Source: Halobacillus hunanensis
GTDB lineage: Bacteria; Bacillota; Bacilli; Bacillales; Halobacillaceae
DNA: 64,000 nucleotides
Assembly (NCBI RefSeq): GCF_900166655.1
Contig: NZ_FVZB01000005.1
Location: 873,001 to 937,000, forward strand
Reading direction: 5' to 3'
Part shown: positions 12,347 to 30,155 of the stretch, piece after piece
Layout: each line of letters starts with the position of its first letter
Numbering within the stretch: the stretch's first letter is position 1
Made by a program: the position numbers and the translations under genes
The notes under the pieces: model-generated
What the model saw: the letters and a program-made list of their open reading frames with translations, nothing else
The model's database searches: none
Told to the model about the DNA's origin: nothing

Positions 12347-13075
12347 TTATACACCGCGTTTGTTACCCCAAAGCAAGGCGTGGACTTGCGGCAGCACACG
12401 CACATGGTTTAGAGTCGTTGAGGCGACGACTTGATCGATCAGCCATTCATATTTTGTTAAAAGATCCGTGGCCAAACGAGCAGGTTCAGATTCCTGTAAA
12501 TCATCATTCCCGACTTGAAGGAAGAAGGGAATAGCAGGATATCGTTGATGGACTTGCTCGGCATATTTAAGATCTTCCTCGTTAAAAATAACCACTTTAA
12601 GACTTGTGTACGCCAGACGATCGTTTGACTCCAACCGCTCAATAATTTCATCTAACACATTCCAGTTCGTTTCCATGTGCGAGCTTGGCGGTTTGGGCGA
12701 AATCGTCAAATCATCAATGGTAAGAAACCAATCCTGCCAGCGACTGCCCTGAGTTTCCAGGGCAACTTCTATATTCATCTCATGAAGCGGTTCAATCAAT
12801 TCATGGAGATTTTTTAGGAGAGCAGGGTTCCCACCGGAGATCGTTACATGGTCAAAATAGCCGCCGCCTGTTTCTTTGAGCTGCTGTACAATCTCTTCAG
12901 CAGTAAGCCGTTGTACTTCTTCTTTCGCACTGCCATCCCATGTGAATGCTGAGTCACACCAGGAACAGCTATAGTCACACCCTGCTGTTCGCACAAACAT
13001 CGTTTTTCTTCCGACTACCATACCTTCTCCCTGGATAGTAGGTCCGAAAATTTCTAAGACGGGAAATTTATTCAT
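12347..13075 (-). CDS. queE: 7-carboxy-7-deazaguanine synthase QueE
   Basis: Radical-SAM enzyme that converts 6-carboxytetrahydropterin to 7-carboxy-7-deazaguanine, the ring-contraction step of queuosine precursor (preQ1) synthesis. The [4Fe-4S] cysteines are in CDYSCSWC near residue 33-40, with TISGGNPA after it and the N-terminal EIFGPTIQGEG. Length 242 is normal. It overlaps queD by 8 bases and is the last gene of the que operon. Confidence 0.95.
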   Translation of the reverse strand: MNKFPVLEIFGPTIQGEGMVVGRKTMFVRTAGCDYSCSWCDSAFTWDGSAKEEVQRLTAEEIVQQLKETGGGYFDHVTISGGNPALLKNLHELIEPLHEMNIEVALETQGSRWQDWFLTIDDLTISPKPPSSHMETNWNVLDEIIERLESNDRLAYTSLKVVIFNEEDLKYAEQVHQRYPAIPFFLQVGNDDLQESEPARLATDLLTKYEWLIDQVVASTTLNHVRVLPQVHALLWGNKRGV

Positions 13076-23508: not shown

Positions 23509-24874
23509 ATTGTGGGGCGGACGTTTTACGAAGCCAACGAACAAACTGGTCGAAGAGTACACCTCTTCGATCGGCTTTGACGTTAAACTGGCTTTACACG
23601 ATATTCAAGGCAGTTTAGCTCATGTGGAGATGCTAGGGGAGTGCCAAATTATTTCACAAGAGGAAGTCTCTCAAATCAAAGAGGGCTTACACATTATTAA
23701 GAAGAAAATAGAAAACGAAGAAGTTGAGTTTTCGGTTGAACAAGAAGATATTCATATGAATATCGAAAAGCTGCTGATTGAAGAGATTGGCCCTGTGGGT
23801 GGTAAGCTCCATACCGGGAGAAGCCGAAATGATCAAGTTGCGACTGATATGCATTTATATTTGAAAGAAAAGACACATCATTTAATACAGTTGGTCGAAG
23901 CAGTCCAGGCAGCACTTGTCCACCAGGCGGATGCTCATGTGGAAACAGTCATTCCAGGATATACACACTTGCAAAGAGCCCAGCCTGTTTCATTTGCTCA
24001 CCATTTGCTGGCGTATTTTTGGATGTTTGAGCGGGACAAAGAGCGTCTTCAGGATAGTGTGAAGCGGATTAACTGGTCCCCCCTGGGTGCAGCAGCGCTT
24101 GCTGGTACTCCTTATCCAGTCGACCGTCAGATGACAGCTGAGAAACTCGGATTTGATCACGTTTATCCAAACTCATTGGACGCCGTCAGTGATCGGGATT
24201 TTATTCTGGAGTTTTTATCTATTTCTTCCATTTTAATCACTCATATATCAAGGTTTTCGGAAGAGTTGATTCTATGGAGCAGTCAGGAGTTTAATTTCGT
24301 TGAGCTTGATGATGCGTTTTGTACGGGATCAAGTATTATGCCGCAGAAGAAGAATCCGGATGTGCCTGAACTGCTTCGCGGAAAAACGGGGCGGATTTAT
24401 GGTAATTTGCTGGGATTGCTGACCCTTCTGAAGGGGCTGCCGCTTGCGTACAATAAGGATATGCAGGAGGACAAGGAAGGCATGTTTGATACGGTGGAGA
24501 CGCTGGATGGGGCGCTTTCTCTGCTTGCTCCAATGGTGGAGTCGATGGAAGTGAAGAATGCGAATATGCGTCAGGCGGTGAACGAGGATTATTCAAATGC
24601 GACGGATATTGCAGATTATTTAGCGTTGAAGGGACTTCCGTTTCGTCAGGCGCATGAGGTGATCGGCAAAATTGTGCTGTATGCGATTCATGAGCAGAAG
24701 TTTTTGCTTGATTTGCCGCTTGACGAGTATAAGGGGTTTTCTGAGCTGTTTGAAGAGGATATTTATGAAAAATTAGCGCCTGAACAGGTTGTGGCTGCTC
24801 GAAATAGTGAAGGCGGTACTGGATTTGAACAAGTGGCACAGCAGCTTGAGCTAGCTAAACAGCATGTGCAGTAA
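23501..24874 (+). CDS. argH: Argininosuccinate lyase
   Basis: Cleaves argininosuccinate to arginine and fumarate, the last step of arginine synthesis. The fumarase/aspartase superfamily signature [16 protein letters not shown] is near residue 280, with [13 protein letters not shown] and [10 protein letters not shown] before it. ATG 23501 lies inside the end of argG, giving 457 residues. The SAM-I riboswitch starts less than 100 bases after its stop, and no separate terminator is seen between them. Confidence 0.96.
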
Positions 24875-24906
24875 AGCAGCTTTTTCGTGTAATTTTCTAA
24901 ATATTA

Positions 24907-24935
24907 TTGACTTTAGCAAAGTTTATTTGTAACAT
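24907..24935 (+). promoter_or_regulatory. Candidate promoter of the SAM-I operon
   Basis: TTGACT (24907-24912), 17-base spacer, TAACAT (24930-24935), ending about 28 bases before the aptamer. Confidence 0.5.
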
Positions 24936-24962
24936 GGCAAGTAACTTAATTACGTTTACTTA

Positions 24963-25063
24963 CTCTTATCTAGAGCAGGCTGAGGGATTTGGCCCTTTGA
25001 CGCCCGGCAACCGGTCTATAGACACGGTGCTACTTCCAACGGACATAGTCCGGAAGATGAGAG
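24963..25063 (+). ncRNA. SAM-I (S-box) riboswitch aptamer
   Basis: The S-box consensus is clear. P1 is CTCTTATC (24963-24970) with GATGAGAG (25056-25063). Inside are AGAGCAGGCTGAGGGATTTG, then GGCCCTTTGACGCCCGGCAACC and the P4 region. The class binds S-adenosylmethionine and switches transcription off when SAM is plentiful. Here it controls five genes that are not classical methionine-synthesis genes. Confidence 0.97.
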
Positions 25064-25080
25064 GTCGAAGCAAAATCTTC

Positions 25081-25110
25081 AGCCTCTTTCATTTTGAAAG
25101 GGGCTTTTTA
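25081..25110 (+). terminator. Riboswitch terminator
   Basis: AGCCTCTTTC (25081-25090) pairs with GAAAGGGGCT (25096-25105), followed by five T. It forms the expression platform of the SAM-I riboswitch. Confidence 0.92.
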
Positions 25111-25134
25111 TTATTCAAAAAGCGGGTGATTGAA

Positions 25135-25800
25135 ATGAATAAGGCGGAGCGGTTGAAGCGGTCAAAGGATCCACAGGTTACCGAGCGGTTTGACGGACGG
25201 CTGCCGCCGGGTCAGGTTTTAACGGAGAAGTTCCCTATTTTAACAGTTGGTGAAGTACCATCCTATGACCTCGAACAATGGGATTTTCAGATTGCCGGGG
25301 CTGGGGATGAAACGCTTCGTTTTTCATATCAGGATTTTATGGAGCTGCCACAGTCGAAAGTTGTTTGTGATATTCACTGTGTGACGAGGTGGTCAAAGTT
25401 CGATAGTGAGTTTGAAGGAGTCCTGCTGAAAGATTTACTGGATGGGTTTGAGATTCCTAAAGACAATCGTTACGTGATGGTTCATGGGGATTATGATTAT
25501 ACAGCTAATATTGCTCTACAAGATTTGTTAGCGAAAGATGTGATCCTGGCTCATTCCTATAATGGCAAACCGCTGACGGAAAAGCATGGTTTTCCATTCC
25601 GGCTCGTTATCCCGCACTTGTACTTCTGGAAGAGTGTAAAGTGGATTAGAGGTTTTGAGTTTAAGGAGTTAGATACGCCTGGTTTTTGGGAACAAAATGG
25701 GTTTCATAACGAAGGAGATCCGTTTAAAGAACAGCGCTTTACTGATGAGAGTGAAGTTATGGAAGAGGGTAAATGGAAAGAAAAGGATTTTGATTATTAA
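25135..25800 (+). CDS. Sulfite-oxidase-fold molybdopterin oxidoreductase (YuiH-like)
   Basis: A 221-residue protein of the SUOX/YedY superfamily, whose members bind a molybdenum cofactor and oxidise or reduce sulfur compounds. Seen: VVCDIHCVTRWS, with cysteine 82 in the place of the molybdenum ligand, and LTEKHGFPFRLVIPHLYFWKSVKWIRGFEF. No Tat or Sec signal is present, unlike the methionine sulfoxide reductase MsrP, so it should be cytoplasmic. The start is ATG 25135 after the riboswitch terminator; GGGTGAT upstream is a modest ribosome site. First gene of a SAM-controlled operon. The reaction is not known from sequence. Confidence 0.85.
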   Translation: MNKAERLKRSKDPQVTERFDGRLPPGQVLTEKFPILTVGEVPSYDLEQWDFQIAGAGDETLRFSYQDFMELPQSKVVCDIHCVTRWSKFDSEFEGVLLKDLLDGFEIPKDNRYVMVHGDYDYTANIALQDLLAKDVILAHSYNGKPLTEKHGFPFRLVIPHLYFWKSVKWIRGFEFKELDTPGFWEQNGFHNEGDPFKEQRFTDESEVMEEGKWKEKDFDY

Positions 25801-25812
25801 GGAGGCTGGACA

Positions 25813-26982
25813 ATGAGTGTTGTCATTTTAGATGGTGTTCGTACACCATTTGGTAAATGGAAAGGCGGATTATCCAAATTAGGAGCGAAGGATCTTGGCA
25901 TTCAAGCGACTAAGGCGCTGGCGGAGCGTGTGCCGGAGGCCTTGAATGTGGATGGAGTTATTTTGGCACAGGTGCTGCAGGCTGGACAGGGACAGAATCC
26001 TGCCAGGTCAGTTGCAGCAGGAGCTGGCATTCCATGGTCGGTACCGGCGATTACGATTAATAATGTATGTTTGGCCGGGGTTGCGTCAGTGGCGGACGCG
26101 GCTAGACGTATCAAGCTTGAGGAAGGGGAGTTATACCTTGTCGGCGGATTTGATTCCATGACCAATGCCCCTCATGTAGCGACCATTAGAAACGGGCTGG
26201 CTACAGGTCCTGTTGAGTTTACTGACACGTTGATTAACGATGGTCTCTGGTGTTCTTTGACGGATTCTTCCATGGGCGAACTGACAGATACTCAAAACGA
26301 AGAACGACATATTACCCGGGAACAACAAGATCAATTTGCCTTGCAGTCTCAGTTAAAGGCAGCGCGGGCGCAGGAAGAAGGCTGGTTAAATGATGAGATT
26401 GTACCTGTTCAGGCTGGCAGCAAACAGGTTGTAAGTGACGAAGGAATCAGGCCCCAGTCTACTGCGGAAAAATTAAGCAAGCTGCCTCCTGCCTTTAGAG
26501 AAGGCGGCACGATTACGGCAGGAAACGCTTCACAAATGACTGATGGAGCTAGTGTCGGCGTGGTTGCGTCGGAAAGTTATGCAGAAAAGATCGGGCAGAC
26601 TCCTCTTGCCAGGGTCATCGGCTGGTCGGAAACAGCCGGACCTGATTCAAGTTTACATACGAAACCGGCAGACGCGATTGCAAAACTCCTCAAACGGTAT
26701 CAGATAACAAAAGAAGAGATTGATTTATTTGAGATAAATGAAGCCTTTGCAAGTGTAGCACTCGCAAGCATTGATGAGCTCGGATTAGATCCTGAAAAAG
26801 TTAATGTAAATGGCGGAGCGATTGCAATCGGACATCCACTGGGCGGCACAGGGTTTCGATTAGTGCTTACACTCGTTCATGAGTTAAAACGCCGAGGCGG
26901 GGGCCGAGGAATTGCATCACTATGCGGAGGCGGAGGGCAAGGCTTCGCGATTCTCGTGGAAGTACCAAAAGAGTGGTCATAA
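25813..26982 (+). CDS. Thiolase (acetyl-CoA acetyltransferase family)
   Basis: Thiolase of the AtoB type, which joins or splits acyl-CoA units. Catalytic residues are visible: cysteine 86 in NNVCLAGVASV, histidine in GGAIAIGHPLGGTG, and the second cysteine in SLCGGGGQG. Length 389 is normal. It has GGAGG 7 bases upstream and lies 12 bases after the molybdopterin gene. In this operon a degradative role, shortening a CoA-linked substrate, is inference. Confidence 0.92.
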   Translation: MSVVILDGVRTPFGKWKGGLSKLGAKDLGIQATKALAERVPEALNVDGVILAQVLQAGQGQNPARSVAAGAGIPWSVPAITINNVCLAGVASVADAARRIKLEEGELYLVGGFDSMTNAPHVATIRNGLATGPVEFTDTLINDGLWCSLTDSSMGELTDTQNEERHITREQQDQFALQSQLKAARAQEEGWLNDEIVPVQAGSKQVVSDEGIRPQSTAEKLSKLPPAFREGGTITAGNASQMTDGASVGVVASESYAEKIGQTPLARVIGWSETAGPDSSLHTKPADAIAKLLKRYQITKEEIDLFEINEAFASVALASIDELGLDPEKVNVNGGAIAIGHPLGGTGFRLVLTLVHELKRRGGGRGIASLCGGGGQGFAILVEVPKEWS

Positions 26983-26997
26983 AAGGAGGAGAAATTC

Positions 26998-27093
26998 ATG
27001 TTTGTTACTTATGGAATAGGAATCGTAGTATTCTGGGCGGCAGGATTAGCTCTATGGCAGGGGATGTATAAGCCATCCAAAGGAGGGAAGTAA
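26998..27093 (+). CDS. 31-residue symporter small accessory protein
   Basis: A very small gene: MFVTYGIGIVVFWAAGLALW then QGMYKPSKGGK, one membrane helix with a basic tail. AAAGGAGG is at 26982-26989, 8 bases before the ATG. Its TAA is followed without a gap by the ATG of the sodium-solute symporter, and its own end carries that gene's ribosome site (AAAGGAGGG). Small partners are known for several sodium symporters of Firmicutes; that this one stabilises the next gene product is inferred from position. Confidence 0.82.
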   Translation: MFVTYGIGIVVFWAAGLALWQGMYKPSKGGK

Positions 27094-28593
27094 ATGGAGA
27101 CCTTATCACAGGGAACGGTGTGGTTTATCGGCGGTTTGTTGTTCGTTTACTTTTTATTTGTCACATGGATTGGCCGTAAAGGCTCGAAATACAGTAAGAC
27201 GATGAGTGGTTTTGCAACAGCTCGAGGAAAGGTGAACCCATGGATCGTTGGAGCCAGCTTCGCAACGACTTATGCAAGTGCAAACTTATTTATTGGAGTG
27301 CCAGGGCTCGCCTATGAATATGGTACGGCCGTGCTCTGGTACACATTAGGATGCTTTGGCGTTTCATGGTTAGGGTTATTGTTTTTTGCGAAAACCTTCT
27401 TTCGATATGGGAAAAAGTTCGGAGGGGTTTCAACATTGCCTGAGTGGTTAGGAAAAAAATACAACAGTAAAGCCCTGCAGGTGATCGTTGGCTTGCTTAT
27501 TCTATTTAATGTGTACTATATCGTAGGGCAAAATGTCGGGCTGGCAACGATTTTTGAAACCGTTCTTGGAATTCCCTATATGTGGGGAGTCATTATCGGA
27601 GTTGCGATAACCGTCGTATATATTGGTTTAGGAGGCGCCTTTGCGCAAATTATTACTGATGGCATCCAGGGAATTTTTATGGCGTTTACATCTGTTCTCA
27701 TATTAATTTCTCTCTTATGGACAATCGGGGGCGGATTCGGAGTCTTCGGGGAGCTCTCTAGTCGTTTGGCTGGAATCGATCCCAATCTTGTTGCACCTAT
27801 TTCGTCAACAGGGCCATACAATAGTGTTCTGGCTATTTTGGCTGTGCAGTTTCTATTATTCAGCTTCGTATTAATGCCGCATTTGTTAAATAAGGTGCTT
27901 TCATTAGAAACAGAGGAAGAATTGCGTCCATTTACACTATCAGCTGGCCTTACCTTGTTTTTAATTTCTACATTAATGGTGGTAGGCGGATTGGCGGCTC
28001 GTGTGCTTCTTCCTTCCTTAGAAAGCGCTGATAAAGCGATTCCAGCTTATTTGATGGAAGCTTTTCCACCGGTAGTGGTAGCCATTTTAATCGTCGGAAT
28101 TATATCAGCCATATTGTCCAGTACAGATAGTTTATATCTCGGTGTAACGACTAGTATCGGCAATGATATTTATAAAGTGCTTGCATCCTTTTTTACGAAA
28201 GGTGGAGGTGACCCTCAGTTGATTGACCGAAGAAGTGTAAGCGTGGCGAAGGCTTCCCTTCTTATTATTGGGGCGATTACCTTATACATTTCGCTTGACC
28301 GGCCAGAGTCGTTATCGATCCTTATTCAGTTTAGTTTCTCCGCGATTATCAGCGGGATCATAGCACCGATTACCTTAGGTTACTTTTGGAAACGAGCGAA
28401 CCGACTTGGAGCCATTGCAGCAGTGGTCGTAGGGGTAACGCTTTATGTGCTATTTACGAATCAGGCCATTATTGAAAACATTTATTTAGCGATGTTTGCA
28501 AGTTCTGTAGCTGGATTTACGGTTATGTTTATAGCAGGAGTGCTGCCTGAGAGAAAGGCAGAAGAGTCCGTTCAGCTTGAAAAAAACGCATGA
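27094..28593 (+). CDS. Sodium:solute symporter (SSS family)
   Basis: A 499-residue membrane importer with about 13 helices, using the sodium gradient to bring in a small solute. Family features: GRKGSKYSKTMSGFATARGK after the first helix, ASFATTYASANLFIG, and the sodium-site helix IISAILSSTDSLYLGVTTSIGNDIY. SSS proteins carry substrates as different as proline, pantothenate, acetate and sugars, and the substrate here is unknown. SAM-riboswitch control suggests a sulfur compound or something feeding methionine or SAM supply. Confidence 0.88.
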   Translation: METLSQGTVWFIGGLLFVYFLFVTWIGRKGSKYSKTMSGFATARGKVNPWIVGASFATTYASANLFIGVPGLAYEYGTAVLWYTLGCFGVSWLGLLFFAKTFFRYGKKFGGVSTLPEWLGKKYNSKALQVIVGLLILFNVYYIVGQNVGLATIFETVLGIPYMWGVIIGVAITVVYIGLGGAFAQIITDGIQGIFMAFTSVLILISLLWTIGGGFGVFGELSSRLAGIDPNLVAPISSTGPYNSVLAILAVQFLLFSFVLMPHLLNKVLSLETEEELRPFTLSAGLTLFLISTLMVVGGLAARVLLPSLESADKAIPAYLMEAFPPVVVAILIVGIISAILSSTDSLYLGVTTSIGNDIYKVLASFFTKGGGDPQLIDRRSVSVAKASLLIIGAITLYISLDRPESLSILIQFSFSAIISGIIAPITLGYFWKRANRLGAIAAVVVGVTLYVLFTNQAIIENIYLAMFASSVAGFTVMFIAGVLPERKAEESVQLEKNA

Positions 28594-28609
28594 AAGAGAG
28601 GGAACATAT

Positions 28610-29773
28610 ATGGCAGATGATCAACAGCAAGGACGTCTTGAGAAAGTCATTCAGCTTCGTGATCAATTTTATAAACGGTCCAAAGAAGTGGATCAATCTG
28701 GTGACTTCCCACATGAAAATTTTGCAGATTTAAAAAATGCCGGCTACCTGTCCTGGACTGTACCGAAGCAGTATGGAGGACTCGGTCTGAACTTGTATGA
28801 GTATTTACAGCTGCAGGAAGAGTTAGCCAAAGGGGATGGAGCTACTGCCTTATCAGTTGGCTGGCATTTAGGGAGTGTACTCGAGCTGGCTGAAAACCAT
28901 AGCTGGGAGGAGGCGATATTCCGTGACCTTTGTCAAAGGGTTGTACATGAGCAAGCTTTAATAAATCGGACTGCAACGGAAAAAGGTACGGGCAGCCCGA
29001 CGAGAGGAGGGATTCCGGAGACGCAAGCATCCCTGCAAGGCGGCCATTGGATTATAAATGGCAGGAAAGCATTTGCATCTATGGCTGAAGCGTTGGATTA
29101 TTCGTTAGTTACCGCCCGTATTGAACAAACAGACAGGATCGGTATCTTTCTAGTTGATCATAACCAGGAAGGGGTAAAGGTAGACCCTACATGGAATTCT
29201 GCTTCAATGAGAGGAACGAGAAGTGATGATCTTATTTTCCAGAATGTAAGTGTCTCATCTGAACACTTTGTCGAAGAGGAAGGCCAGCGAGTGGGTCCTC
29301 CTGCACCGAAAGGCTGGCTTCTGCATATCCCGGCCTGTTATCTAGGGATCGCATCAGCTGCTTGTCGATATGCGGTTGATTTTGCCAGTATGTATCAGCC
29401 AAACAGTTTGCCTGGTCCTATTAAAGAAGTGCCAGAGGTGCAGCGGAAAATAGGCGAAATGGAGCTTGCCTTATTCCAATCCCGTGAAATTCTCTACTCT
29501 GTAGCGAACCGATGGGTGCAGCAGCCCGATCACAGAGCCGATATGGGAGCAGAGTTAGCGGCTGTAAAGCATATTGCAACAAATCAGGCTGTTCATGTCG
29601 TTGATTTAGCCATGAAAATTGTTGGGGCACGCAGCTTGTCAAGAGACTGTCCATTAGAACGCTATTATCGGGACGTACGTTCTGGGCTGCATAACCCGCC
29701 GATGGATGACGCTGTAATAAAAATGTTCGCCGCAAAGTCATTGCAAGGTTCTCAGCCAACTGTCACTTCTTAA
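28610..29773 (+). CDS. Acyl-CoA-dehydrogenase-like flavoprotein, YdbM-type, without the usual catalytic Glu motif
   Basis: A 387-residue flavoprotein of the acyl-CoA dehydrogenase superfamily, with N-terminal helical domain (VPKQYGGLGLNLYEY), middle beta domain and C-terminal FAD domain (IVGARSLSRDCPLERYYRDV). Where true dehydrogenases have a YEGTSEIQ-like stretch with the catalytic glutamate, this one has LHNPPMDD. That is seen in superfamily members that are oxygenases or have unknown chemistry. B. subtilis YdbM, a similar protein, belongs to the sulfur (CymR) regulon as I recall. The start at 28610 has GAGAGGG 7 bases upstream; the gene overlaps no neighbour. Last gene of the SAM-I operon. 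Confidence 0.82.
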   Translation: MADDQQQGRLEKVIQLRDQFYKRSKEVDQSGDFPHENFADLKNAGYLSWTVPKQYGGLGLNLYEYLQLQEELAKGDGATALSVGWHLGSVLELAENHSWEEAIFRDLCQRVVHEQALINRTATEKGTGSPTRGGIPETQASLQGGHWIINGRKAFASMAEALDYSLVTARIEQTDRIGIFLVDHNQEGVKVDPTWNSASMRGTRSDDLIFQNVSVSSEHFVEEEGQRVGPPAPKGWLLHIPACYLGIASAACRYAVDFASMYQPNSLPGPIKEVPEVQRKIGEMELALFQSREILYSVANRWVQQPDHRADMGAELAAVKHIATNQAVHVVDLAMKIVGARSLSRDCPLERYYRDVRSGLHNPPMDDAVIKMFAAKSLQGSQPTVTS

Positions 29774-29808
29774 ATCGTGCTTTCATATCATAACGCGTGT
29801 GCCGTAAT

Positions 29809-29833
29809 GTTTGAGGGGAATGAAAAGGGGTAT
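29809..29833 (+). promoter_or_regulatory. Sigma-B-type promoter
   Basis: GTTTGA (29809-29814), 13-base spacer, GGGTAT (29828-29833), close to the general-stress consensus GTTTAA-N13-GGGTAT. The next gene starts 35 bases further on. Confidence 0.65.
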
Positions 29834-29867
29834 GATAAGAGTAAAAACACTAAAGGAGTTTGACGAG

Positions 29868-30155
29868 ATGACTAAACATGTAGAGGCTTATTTTGAAACG
29901 GAAAATGATGCTGAAAGTGTTAAGGCTTCTTTGCAAAAGCTGGCAATTGAGGATGAATATATCGAGCCTATTCCAGATAACACTCCATTGTTATCACGGT
30001 TAATCCCGCTAAATAATTTAGATAAATCAGGCCCTGATAAACAGTTAACTCATTTGCTGCGCTTTGATGTAAAGGATGAGAATTATGAAAGTGCTTTAAA
30101 CGTGATTAAGGAGCATGAAGGACATATGGATCCATCCGAACTGGAAAGTAAGTAA
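29868..30155 (+). CDS. Small protein of unknown function, probable general stress gene
   Basis: A 95-residue hydrophilic protein beginning MTKHVEAYFETENDAESVKA. The alternation of strands and helices recalls the ferredoxin-like fold of general stress proteins such as YflT, but I see no firm signature. The ATG at 29868 has AAAGGAG 9 bases upstream; the frame is open 19 codons further upstream, across the promoter. The sigma-B-type promoter just before it is the best clue to its role. Confidence 0.75.
   Translation: MTKHVEAYFETENDAESVKASLQKLAIEDEYIEPIPDNTPLLSRLIPLNNLDKSGPDKQLTHLLRFDVKDENYESALNVIKEHEGHMDPSELESK

Follow-up and report, generated by a model that had tools for sequence, protein, structure and literature searches.

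In Acinetobacter, DMS and DMSO are described as being oxidised by monooxygenases of the acyl-CoA-dehydrogenase fold (PMC13352529), and in B. subtilis the CymR regulon is described as including ydbM, a sulfur-regulated butyryl-CoA-dehydrogenase-like gene (PMC2743287). Methionine salvage genes (mtnKA, mtnWXB), for their part, lie under S-box control in some systems; the genome of Halobacillus hunanensis differs from these in having no MtnK or MtnA match. Here we have analysed a window of 64,000 nt from this genome, in which a SAM-I (S-box) riboswitch precedes five genes. To our knowledge, none of the five gene types is on the well-known list of S-box-controlled genes; the original prediction that none is a classical member thus holds for that list, but it does not extend to the families, as genes 1, 4 and 5 have relatives that are found repeatedly behind SAM riboswitches.

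Covariance and pattern searches confirm, at the level of sequence, the predicted complete aptamer and terminator, and with them a genuine SAM riboswitch controlling a small operon. The aptamer (24963-25063, + strand) matches Rfam RF00162 over the whole model (1-108) at 78.2 bits (E 1.1e-16), against a gathering score of 44.4; model R2, whose training set contains that same aptamer, matches it as well. Downstream lies an intrinsic terminator (25081-25105, +) of 11 pairs followed by TTTTATTATT, found by pattern scan and folding (-15.0 kcal/mol alone). A possible antiterminator helix (25054-25095, +) would form between the 3' strand of P1 and the terminator's 5' arm; in the ViennaRNA fold of 25050-25095 this competing helix has -14.5 kcal/mol. 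Upstream, a sigma-70-like promoter, TTGACT-17-TAACAT (24907-24935, +), is a consensus match with a predicted start. This site and the terminator are the sole promoter-like and terminator-like matches in 24860-25200, where shuffled controls average 0.5 and 0.2, respectively, so that the promoter match is weak taken alone; the same scan reveals no promoter between terminator and gene 1 that could bypass the switch. We infer that the aptamer forms a switch with its expression platform, terminator and competing antiterminator, ahead of gene 1. In its full-length match, terminator, possible antiterminator and upstream promoter-like site it is like other RF00162 riboswitches, and we see no difference in the switch itself; what is unusual is only the genes under its control.

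The predicted run of five genes is likewise present, all in the same direction, tightly packed (gaps of 0-16 nt) and preceded by G-rich Shine-Dalgarno-like sequences; Pfam backs the families of genes 1, 2, 4 and 5. Gene 1 (25135-25800, +) encodes a sulfite-oxidase-fold Mo-cofactor protein of 221 aa (PF00174, 138 bits); its start is taken as 25135 and not as the TTG at 24907 of the mechanically called open reading frame. Gene 2 (25813-26982, +) encodes a 389-aa thiolase of the acetyl-CoA acetyltransferase type (TIGR01930, 418.5 bits, cut-off 240.55), in which Cys86, His341 and Cys371, presumably the catalytic Cys/His/Cys, are kept in the five intact rows of six aligned, and which bears no sulfur signature. 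Gene 3 (26998-27093, +) encodes a 31-aa one-helix protein with no Pfam or NCBIfam match, and gene 4 (27094-28593, +) a 499-aa sodium:solute symporter (PF00474, 170.6 bits, cut-off 22.8) that falls under the cut-offs of the NCBIfam models panF and sss. Gene 5 (28610-29773, +) encodes a 387-aa protein of the acyl-CoA-dehydrogenase fold, read from its structure model and motif as a DszC-like flavin monooxygenase. Neither a hydratase nor a hydroxyacyl dehydrogenase is among these genes. Promoter and terminator scans covered 24860-25200 and 25790-29900; the latter region holds no promoter-like site on the + strand and three terminator-like ones (four on both strands, against 3.8 by chance).

Across relatives, the S-box linkage is kept in all six orthologous operons found (window, L047, L048, L049, L050, L119), where the riboswitch precedes Mo enzyme, thiolase, in some cases a ligase, 31-aa protein, symporter and gene 5, in support of the predicted SAM control of uptake and CoA-linked enzymes. 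The ligase, AcsA-like and under the AcsA cut-off, lies within the L049 and L119 operons, and an AcsA-like ligase is also part of a shorter operon (L099) of SAM riboswitch, thiolase, ligase, 31-aa protein and symporter. The best-matching named genomes with the full operon are Sediminibacillus and Thalassobacillus, which we take to be of saline habitat. In another genome (G008) the operon is decaying, with the thiolase end out of frame and the symporter fragmented, indicating that it is dispensable there. Symporter relatives of 59-95% identity occur at 28 loci (at least 59%), and similar small proteins stand ahead of symporters of this family. Among the 25 loci whose gene context was read, 14 lie behind SAM riboswitches and 11 in acetoacetate-CoA-ligase/thiolase/DUF35 operons; the cargo is therefore probably a short carboxylate. 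Outside the operon, the symporter has its nearest relatives in acetoacetate-linked settings. The window genome itself carries 16 SAM riboswitches, others among them preceding Cys/Met-enzyme, sulfite-reductase, MsrA-family, FMN-reductase and luciferase-type monooxygenase genes, which agrees with the organosulfur role originally proposed.

The original description of gene 1 as a sulfite-oxidase-fold molybdoenzyme stands as to fold, though not as to a true sulfite oxidase. Its structure model has sulfite oxidases and YedY/MsrP as nearest matches (for 1xdq, which we take to be YedY, the TM-score on the query is 0.63), and a candidate Mo ligand, Cys82, is Cys in 36/36 aligned rows; MoeA, for the Mo cofactor, is found in the genome. 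It has a single Oxidored_molyb domain ending at residue 185, as do MsrP/YedY and small relatives presumably named YuiH, and lacks the second (dimerisation) domain; the matched sulfite oxidase/dehydrogenase chains are 343-466 residues long. Scores lie far under cut-offs for SoxC, SorA and SorT (49.4, 35.2 and 26.5 bits; cut-offs 420, 600 and 570) and for MsrP (45.6 bits; cut-off 207), and no export signal is visible by eye at the N-terminus, MNKAERLKRSKD.

Relatives of gene 1 recur behind SAM riboswitches alone, ahead of mtnK-mtnA and within a BMP-type ABC importer operon, giving at least four operon architectures under SAM control; at 63 of the 80 Mo-enzyme loci, however much DNA was examined around them, such a riboswitch is absent from it. 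Shorter paralogues (L102-L106) are, unlike gene 1, without one; the L102-L104 rows, at 43-46%, share with it the motif HCVT-W-S. In Jeotgalibacillus (L130), the Mo gene leads a SAM-mtnK-mtnA-ABC run, while mtnW-mtnX-mtnB run divergently from it and follow a second SAM match of their own. It is tempting, if still doubtful, to propose a cytoplasmic Mo-enzyme family with a 220-aa founder, spanning Bacillaceae and Brevibacillus, that is induced by SAM scarcity and serves methionine and methylthio salvage by reducing methyl sulfoxides (CH3-S(O)-R). Its substrates might be sulfoxides of methylthioribose or methylthioadenosine where the gene lies beside mtnK-mtnA or together with a phosphorylase and a BMP-ABC importer; in the window operon the substrate might be a methylsulfinyl carboxylate.

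Gene 5 was originally called acyl-CoA-dehydrogenase-like, which fits its fold and its passing Pfam acyl-CoA dehydrogenase domains; as a beta-oxidation enzyme it fits less well, and its nearest structures and active-site motif make it better read as a flavin monooxygenase like DszC, TdsC and MsuC than as a typical dehydrogenase. The model is 50% identical to 5z8t, 'Flavin-containing monooxygenase'; in the sequence search the identical chain is titled 'Acyl-CoA dehydrogenase type 2 domain protein'. Ranks 1-17 of the fold search are monooxygenases or KijD3, save 5gj7 (named putative acyl-CoA dehydrogenase), and TdsC, MsuC, DszC and KijD3 stand above the next named dehydrogenase at rank 18, with similar TM-scores in the two groups. 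RDVR is followed by GLHNPP, whose G, N, P and P are invariant across 19 rows, in a region that we compare with the presumed position of the dehydrogenase active-site Glu. Sequence scores by themselves leave the choice undecided, with dehydrogenases outscoring DszC: in PDB, 5ol2 scores 88 bits, 2vig 78 and DszC 72, and in NCBIfam, all under cut-off, FadE16-like scores 120.5 (the best equivalog, cut-off 600), 3-sulfinopropanoyl-CoA desulfinase 114.4, SfnB 86.7 (cut-off 430.9) and curated DszC 82 (cut-off 850). Since it falls below the DszC and SfnB cut-offs, gene 5 would be at most a separate subfamily within these monooxygenases.

In fold and nearest structures gene 5 is like DszC, TdsC, MsuC and Acinetobacter Dms1-3, and its relatives, as in two-component DszC-type systems, adjoin genes for FMN reductase (SsuE-type, under a SAM riboswitch, in L101) and NtaA/DmoA-type monooxygenase (with a MetQ-like gene, also under a SAM riboswitch, in L055). 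It differs in being only 21-24% identical, SAM-riboswitch-controlled and joined to a symporter, a thiolase and a Mo enzyme. The family at about 50% identity to which gene 5 and 5z8t belong is presumably YdbM; B. subtilis YdbM has CymR control and other operon partners, against the S-box of gene 5. In the DNA examined, 11 of the 19 aligned gene 5 rows have no SAM riboswitch.

We favour, with somewhat better than even confidence, an organosulfur-scavenging operon in which a sulfur-bearing carboxylate would be imported, activated and shortened and its sulfur freed oxidatively for methionine; substrate, reaction order and direction of the Mo enzyme are conjectural parts of this model. At low SAM (methionine) the terminator would not form and the operon would be transcribed. 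The symporter and its 31-aa partner would import a short sulfur-bearing carboxylate, and a CoA ligase would activate it, encoded within the operon in some relatives and here perhaps by a 42%-identical relative elsewhere, the best in a genome with no close operon-type ligase. The thiolase would take off a two-carbon unit, and the gene 5 monooxygenase, with reduced flavin from a separately SAM-controlled FMN reductase, would oxygenate the sulfur and thereby open the C-S bond to cleavage. The small Mo enzyme would carry out an S-oxide redox step, reduction being favoured over sulfite oxidation, and the liberated sulfur would enter methionine synthesis. Counted against this model are the dehydrogenase-leaning scores of gene 5, the acetoacetate-linked kin of the symporter, the ordinary thiolase, the lack of hydratase, hydroxyacyl dehydrogenase and close ligase, the many riboswitch-free gene 5 and Mo-enzyme loci, and the decay in G008; moreover, an S-oxygenase and an S-oxide reductase oppose each other unless their intermediates differ.

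Several of these points would suit a carbon operon, a rather unlikely reading in which symporter, ligase and thiolase would handle the uptake and cleavage of an ordinary beta-keto acid, for example acetoacetate. Gene 5 would then be an ordinary dehydrogenase, and SAM control would meet the need for acetyl-CoA in making O-acetylhomoserine. The symporters of the 11 acetoacetate-CoA-ligase loci are 70-73% identical, the ligase of one (L084) scores 710 bits on TIGR01217 (cut-off 520.9) with the other ten 68-73% identical to it, and the thiolase is of acetoacetyl type. However, none of those 11 loci has a SAM riboswitch; where the operon is SAM-controlled, it includes a monooxygenase-like protein as well as a Mo enzyme, the latter recurring both next to mtnK-mtnA and within importer operons. 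The position of the Mo enzyme next to mtnK-mtnA would suit the import of methionine equivalents, in which the symporter takes up a methylthio keto or hydroxy acid (e.g., 4-methylthio-2-oxobutyrate) or its sulfoxide; the sulfoxide would be reduced by the Mo enzyme, and methionine would result from transamination. SAM-controlled symporters with no close same-strand gene downstream (L080, L081, L082, L095, L096, L097) agree with this, as does the absence of MtnK and MtnA matches in 7/8 tested genomes holding such a symporter. We nevertheless hold it distinctly improbable: thiolase and gene 5 are left without a role, keto-acid specificity of the symporter is conjecture, and the genome's own symporter paralogue (L079) is followed 32 nt downstream by an aldehyde-dehydrogenase-like gene, as read by eye.

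The methylated sulfur osmolyte of the original prediction fared worse. A carboxylate-type symporter, CoA enzymes and the full operon in Sediminibacillus and Thalassobacillus would suit uptake and degradation of a DMSP-like compound, but nothing found points to DMSP, the one lyase family searched (cupin, PF16867) has no match in the genome (a weak control, as 0/14 control genomes passed its cut-off), and a thiolase is not expected in DMSP breakdown; we give this reading very little credence. As little can be given to true sulfite oxidation, with the Mo enzyme detoxifying sulfite set free by gene 5. Sulfite oxidases are among the nearest folds of gene 1 and an S-oxygenase route may liberate sulfite, yet such oxidation would be wasteful under sulfur starvation, the second domain is absent, the sulfite-oxidase scores are far too low, and relatives of gene 1 also adjoin mtnK-mtnA. 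In addition, the TRNH arginine of the chicken enzyme, which we take to be Arg138 with its role in sulfite oxidase, aligns with a valine in gene 1 (a weak stretch of 2.3 bits). R138Q mutants appear among the structures matched by gene 1.

The riboswitch offers a solid starting point for assigning substrates to these proteins, and a CoA-linked import module is here tied to a probable S-oxygenase. Finding the Mo enzyme under the same switch in several differing gene settings makes its reaction worth testing. If the organosulfur-scavenging reading is true, it would add a way of obtaining methionine from organosulfur acids of the environment, bring a molybdenum enzyme into methionine salvage and provide a cargo class for the symporter family that the conserved 31-aa partner accompanies.

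The S-box aptamer proposed ahead of the five-gene operon is recovered by the covariance search as a SAM riboswitch (RF00162) at 24963-25063 on the + strand, scoring 78.2 bits in Rfam against a gathering threshold of 44.4, and its E-value of 1.1e-16, together with its conservation, rules out a chance match. A promoter-like site (24907-24935, + strand) lies upstream of the aptamer and a terminator-like hairpin (25081-25105, + strand) downstream; a scan of 24860-25200 found no promoter- or terminator-like site beyond these two, and hence no promoter between terminator and gene 1 that would bypass the switch, an outcome that would have counted against the original prediction. In folding, pairing of the 3' strand of helix P1 with the terminator's 5' arm yields -14.5 kcal/mol, near the -15.0 kcal/mol of the terminator itself, and we infer that the leader has the usual layout for SAM-dependent termination. 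A mechanical ORF from TTG 24907 was rejected, as it would cross both the promoter-like site and the aptamer. The five genes behind the riboswitch are spaced 0-16 nt apart and have Shine-Dalgarno-like sequences, and 25790-29900 holds no + strand promoter-like site and terminator-like sites at no more than chance level. The riboswitch is an ordinary RF00162 member; the operon behind it appears to be a new arrangement. Two other regulatory RNAs were seen in the window: a T-box leader (RF00230, 21990-22218, + strand, 103 bits) that precedes argG-argH upstream of the operon, with a specifier position reading CGC (arginine) by eye, which would fit those genes, and a PreQ1 riboswitch (RF00522, 14289-14333, - strand, 45.2 bits).

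Protein searches covered 61 genomes, the H. hunanensis genome and 60 relatives. Gene 1, the small molybdoenzyme, has some match in 27 of them and one of at least 59% identity in five, all of which hold the operon (window, L047, L048, L049, L050); a named-genome search added a further operon in Sediminibacillus massiliensis (L119). The riboswitch stands upstream of gene 1 in all six (window, L047-L050, L119), bearing out the expected conservation of S-box linkage, with the window, L047 and L048 belonging to one genus and so not independent. L121 (Thalassobacillus sp. CUG 92003) shares the gene content of L049 and is treated as the same. Gene 2 scores 418.5 bits with its thiolase model (cut-off 240.55); in L048 (genome G008) the reading frame is broken at the thiolase end and the symporter is fragmented. 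An AcsA-like ligase sits between thiolase and symporter in L049 and L119, and L099 (genome G060) has the order SAM riboswitch, thiolase, ligase, 31-residue protein, symporter, without genes 1 and 5. The best relative of this ligase in the H. hunanensis genome is 42% identical and on a different contig. In Aquibacillus (L120), one SAM riboswitch precedes gene 1 and a second the 31-residue protein and symporter.

The description of gene 5 as acyl-CoA-dehydrogenase-like holds for its fold, with every NCBIfam equivalog model below cut-off, but a plain dehydrogenase function in beta-oxidation is disfavoured by structure ranking and by a conserved motif, even though sequence scores lean the other way and leave that function some room. 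The nearest structures to its model (mean pLDDT 85.9) are 5z8t, a 'Flavin-containing monooxygenase' (50% identity) for which the sequence-search record gives the name acyl-CoA dehydrogenase type 2 domain protein, and 5gj7 (48%), a putative acyl-CoA dehydrogenase; TdsC, MsuC, DszC and KijD3 follow at 21-24% identity, and the next dehydrogenase comes at rank 18, with a similar TM-score. Across 19 aligned rows, the GLHNPP segment after RDVR has invariant G, N, P and P, with L and H conserved in at least 90%, as is the histidine of GWHL; we take the two histidines to be counterparts of DszC active-site residues, and dehydrogenases presumably carry their catalytic Glu at the GLHNPP segment. By sequence, past 5z8t and 5gj7, the dehydrogenases 5ol2 (88 bits) and 2vig (78) outscore DszC (72), and in NCBIfam FadE16-like (120.5) and 3-sulfinopropanoyl-CoA desulfinase (114.4) outscore SfnB (86.7) and DszC (82). 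Matches to this fold occur in 60 of the 61 genomes and are mostly distant.

A SAM riboswitch lies ahead of the operon for 8 of the 19 gene-5 rows, six of them in this operon and the others in L101 and L055. In L101 a SAM riboswitch leads gene 5 and an SsuE-type FMN reductase that scores 198.9 bits (cut-off 164.05), and a further SAM riboswitch, with monooxygenase and MetNIQ-like genes, points the opposite way; in L055, an NtaA/DmoA-type monooxygenase, a MetQ-like gene and gene 5 follow the riboswitch. Divergent SAM riboswitches with such a monooxygenase, MetNIQ-like genes and a gene-5 relative span L101:9921-16049 and L055:1969-8818; the MetNIQ assignments, like that of the monooxygenase in L101, were made by eye. 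In Acinetobacter baylyi, three group D enzymes are reported to oxidise DMS and DMSO, one flavin reductase serving them (PMC13352529). Two further papers place ydbM of B. subtilis in the CymR regulon (PMC2743287) and tabulate S. aureus ydbM in a sulfide-response study (PMC5480029).

Gene 1 matches Oxidored_molyb in Pfam (138 bits) and falls well under the NCBIfam cut-offs for sulfite dehydrogenase and MsrP. Its structure model (mean pLDDT 86.5) fits sulfite oxidases and 1xdq, which we take to be YedY/MsrP, to a similar degree (query-based TM 0.62-0.63), and all 36 aligned rows have Cys82. The missed cut-offs speak against a sulfite oxidase, as does the arginine of the chicken sulfite oxidase TRNH segment, which aligns with valine, albeit in a weakly aligned stretch. 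We favour reduction of an S-oxide over sulfite oxidation, because the latter would waste sulfur, because sulfite-binding features look absent and because gene 1 recurs with methylthio metabolism, although the probable oxygenase encoded by gene 5 in the same operon points the other way. Among the papers searched, none joined 'YuiH' with 'sulfite oxidase'.

Gene 1 also occurs in other settings. Among the best 80 of its 278 scan-confirmed relatives, 17 loci have a same-direction SAM aptamer upstream, directly ahead of gene 1 in seven (L119-L121, L127-L130) and ahead of a BMP-type ABC importer operon containing gene 1 in ten (L122-L126, L131, L132, L134, L138, L145). Rfam was positive at eight of ten gene 1 loci run (negative at L139 and L141); L049, and with it L121, was among the sequences used to build R2, our covariance model of SAM aptamers. 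Gene 1 is solitary in L129, and in L127 and L128 another same-strand gene lies 160-220 nt behind. SAM control of every relative is rejected: 63 of the best 80 gene 1 loci, including all titled Paenibacillus or Pseudomonas, gave no SAM match, with upstream DNA covered for under 700 nt at some (such as L162, L186 and L194), and 11 of the 19 gene-5 rows have no SAM riboswitch in the flanking DNA examined. The loci of shorter gene 1 paralogues (L102-L106) likewise gave no SAM match (5/5). All four importer genes are present at 41 of the best 80 loci and a uridine-phosphorylase-like gene directly downstream at 41, 40 of these with the importer; the importer binding-protein and phosphorylase models score below their cut-offs. 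In L122, L124, L125, L132, L134 and others, at about 2.0-8.4 kb, the riboswitch is followed by a BMP-type lipoprotein, an ABC ATPase, two permeases, gene 1 and the uridine-phosphorylase-like gene. This arrangement is possibly a sulfur-nucleoside uptake operon. A second SAM riboswitch (12938-13045) in the Brevibacillus MAG locus L125:10498-13055 (- strand) lies near ECF-type transporter-like genes, by eye.

In Jeotgalibacillus (L130:2397-12711), a methylthioribose salvage locus, the riboswitch precedes gene 1, mtnK, mtnA, a binding protein and a sugar-type ABC ATPase, and on the opposite strand a second one precedes mtnW-mtnX-mtnB. In small, related and chosen genome samples, MtnK matched in 11 of 12 genomes that have gene 1 in a different context and MtnA in eight of eight, and neither matched in the same seven of eight genomes with a SAM-controlled symporter of the gene 4 kind (G007 being the MtnK exception).

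Gene 4 belongs to the SSF family in Pfam. Relatives of at least 59% identity occupy 28 loci, counting the G008 pieces as one, and contexts were compared for 25, leaving out G028, G029 and one G003 locus. SAM riboswitches precede 14 of the 25. Five of these belong to this operon and one to L099; four more (L079-L082) are transcribed away from a SAM-controlled NtaA/DmoA-type monooxygenase, L094 follows a monooxygenase of that type within one operon, and L095-L097 have no further gene on their strand nearby, the L097 gene carrying an internal stop. The other 11 sit in operons of acetoacetate-CoA ligase, thiolase, DUF35 and 31-residue protein, with no SAM match in the flanking DNA examined; the ligase family was scanned in L084 only, the others being named by identity to it. 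These two kinds of context, SAM and acetoacetate-CoA ligase, suggest that the cargo is probably a short, perhaps beta-keto, acid. It also supports a carbon-only role, in which symporter, ligase and thiolase would handle a plain beta-keto acid such as acetoacetate. In the symporter tree, where branches are long and some forks unresolved, the window-type operon is not one clade; we draw no conclusion from the branching.

Near the genome's own SAM-controlled symporter paralogue (L079:3270-6601), an aldehyde-dehydrogenase-like gene lies 32 nt behind, by eye, a possible cargo clue. In two genomes, BsrG (RF01412) matches occur near the SAM-controlled symporter/monooxygenase pair (L080:1228-1482, L082:5963-6216). 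Gene 3 (26998-27093 in the window) has no Pfam or NCBIfam family, and no NCBIfam model matched it or the L079 small protein; one-helix proteins of about 31-40 residues sharing the pattern M-TY ... FW--G--W precede these symporters in the window, L047-L050, L079, L082, L083, L085, L088, L096, L119 and L120.

On balance we lean, by a modest degree, towards organosulfur-acid scavenging as the role of the operon, a confidence held down somewhat by the sequence ranking of gene 5. Import would be followed by CoA activation, thiolysis, S-oxygenation and sulfur release. The original suggestion of a methylated sulfur osmolyte of the DMSP type is set aside, if weakly, as the cupin DMSP-lyase family was not found in the genome. 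The operon is not described in the titles and abstract openings searched, a scope that excludes subscription journals and RegPrecise and does not establish absence in print; the main text of PMC6302742, on methionine salvage, contains no word beginning 'molyb'.

The H. hunanensis genome holds 16 SAM riboswitches. By family scan, the genes behind them include an ABC ATPase with NIL domain, a Cys/Met PLP enzyme with CoA-binding domain, an FMN reductase, luciferase-type and NtaA/DmoA-type monooxygenases, a Na+/H+-antiporter-family protein, and members of the peptide methionine sulfoxide reductase and sulfite reductase families; by eye they include MetK, CysH-like, homoserine acetyltransferase-like and SsuABC-like genes. 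By-eye names around the compared loci were family-scanned only in part. In L109:3371-5398, a SAM riboswitch is followed by a Cys/Met PLP enzyme with an extra CoA-binding domain and then SsuABC-like genes. SAM control in this organism takes in the oxidative use of organosulfur compounds, and the window operon is in keeping with the other genes so controlled.
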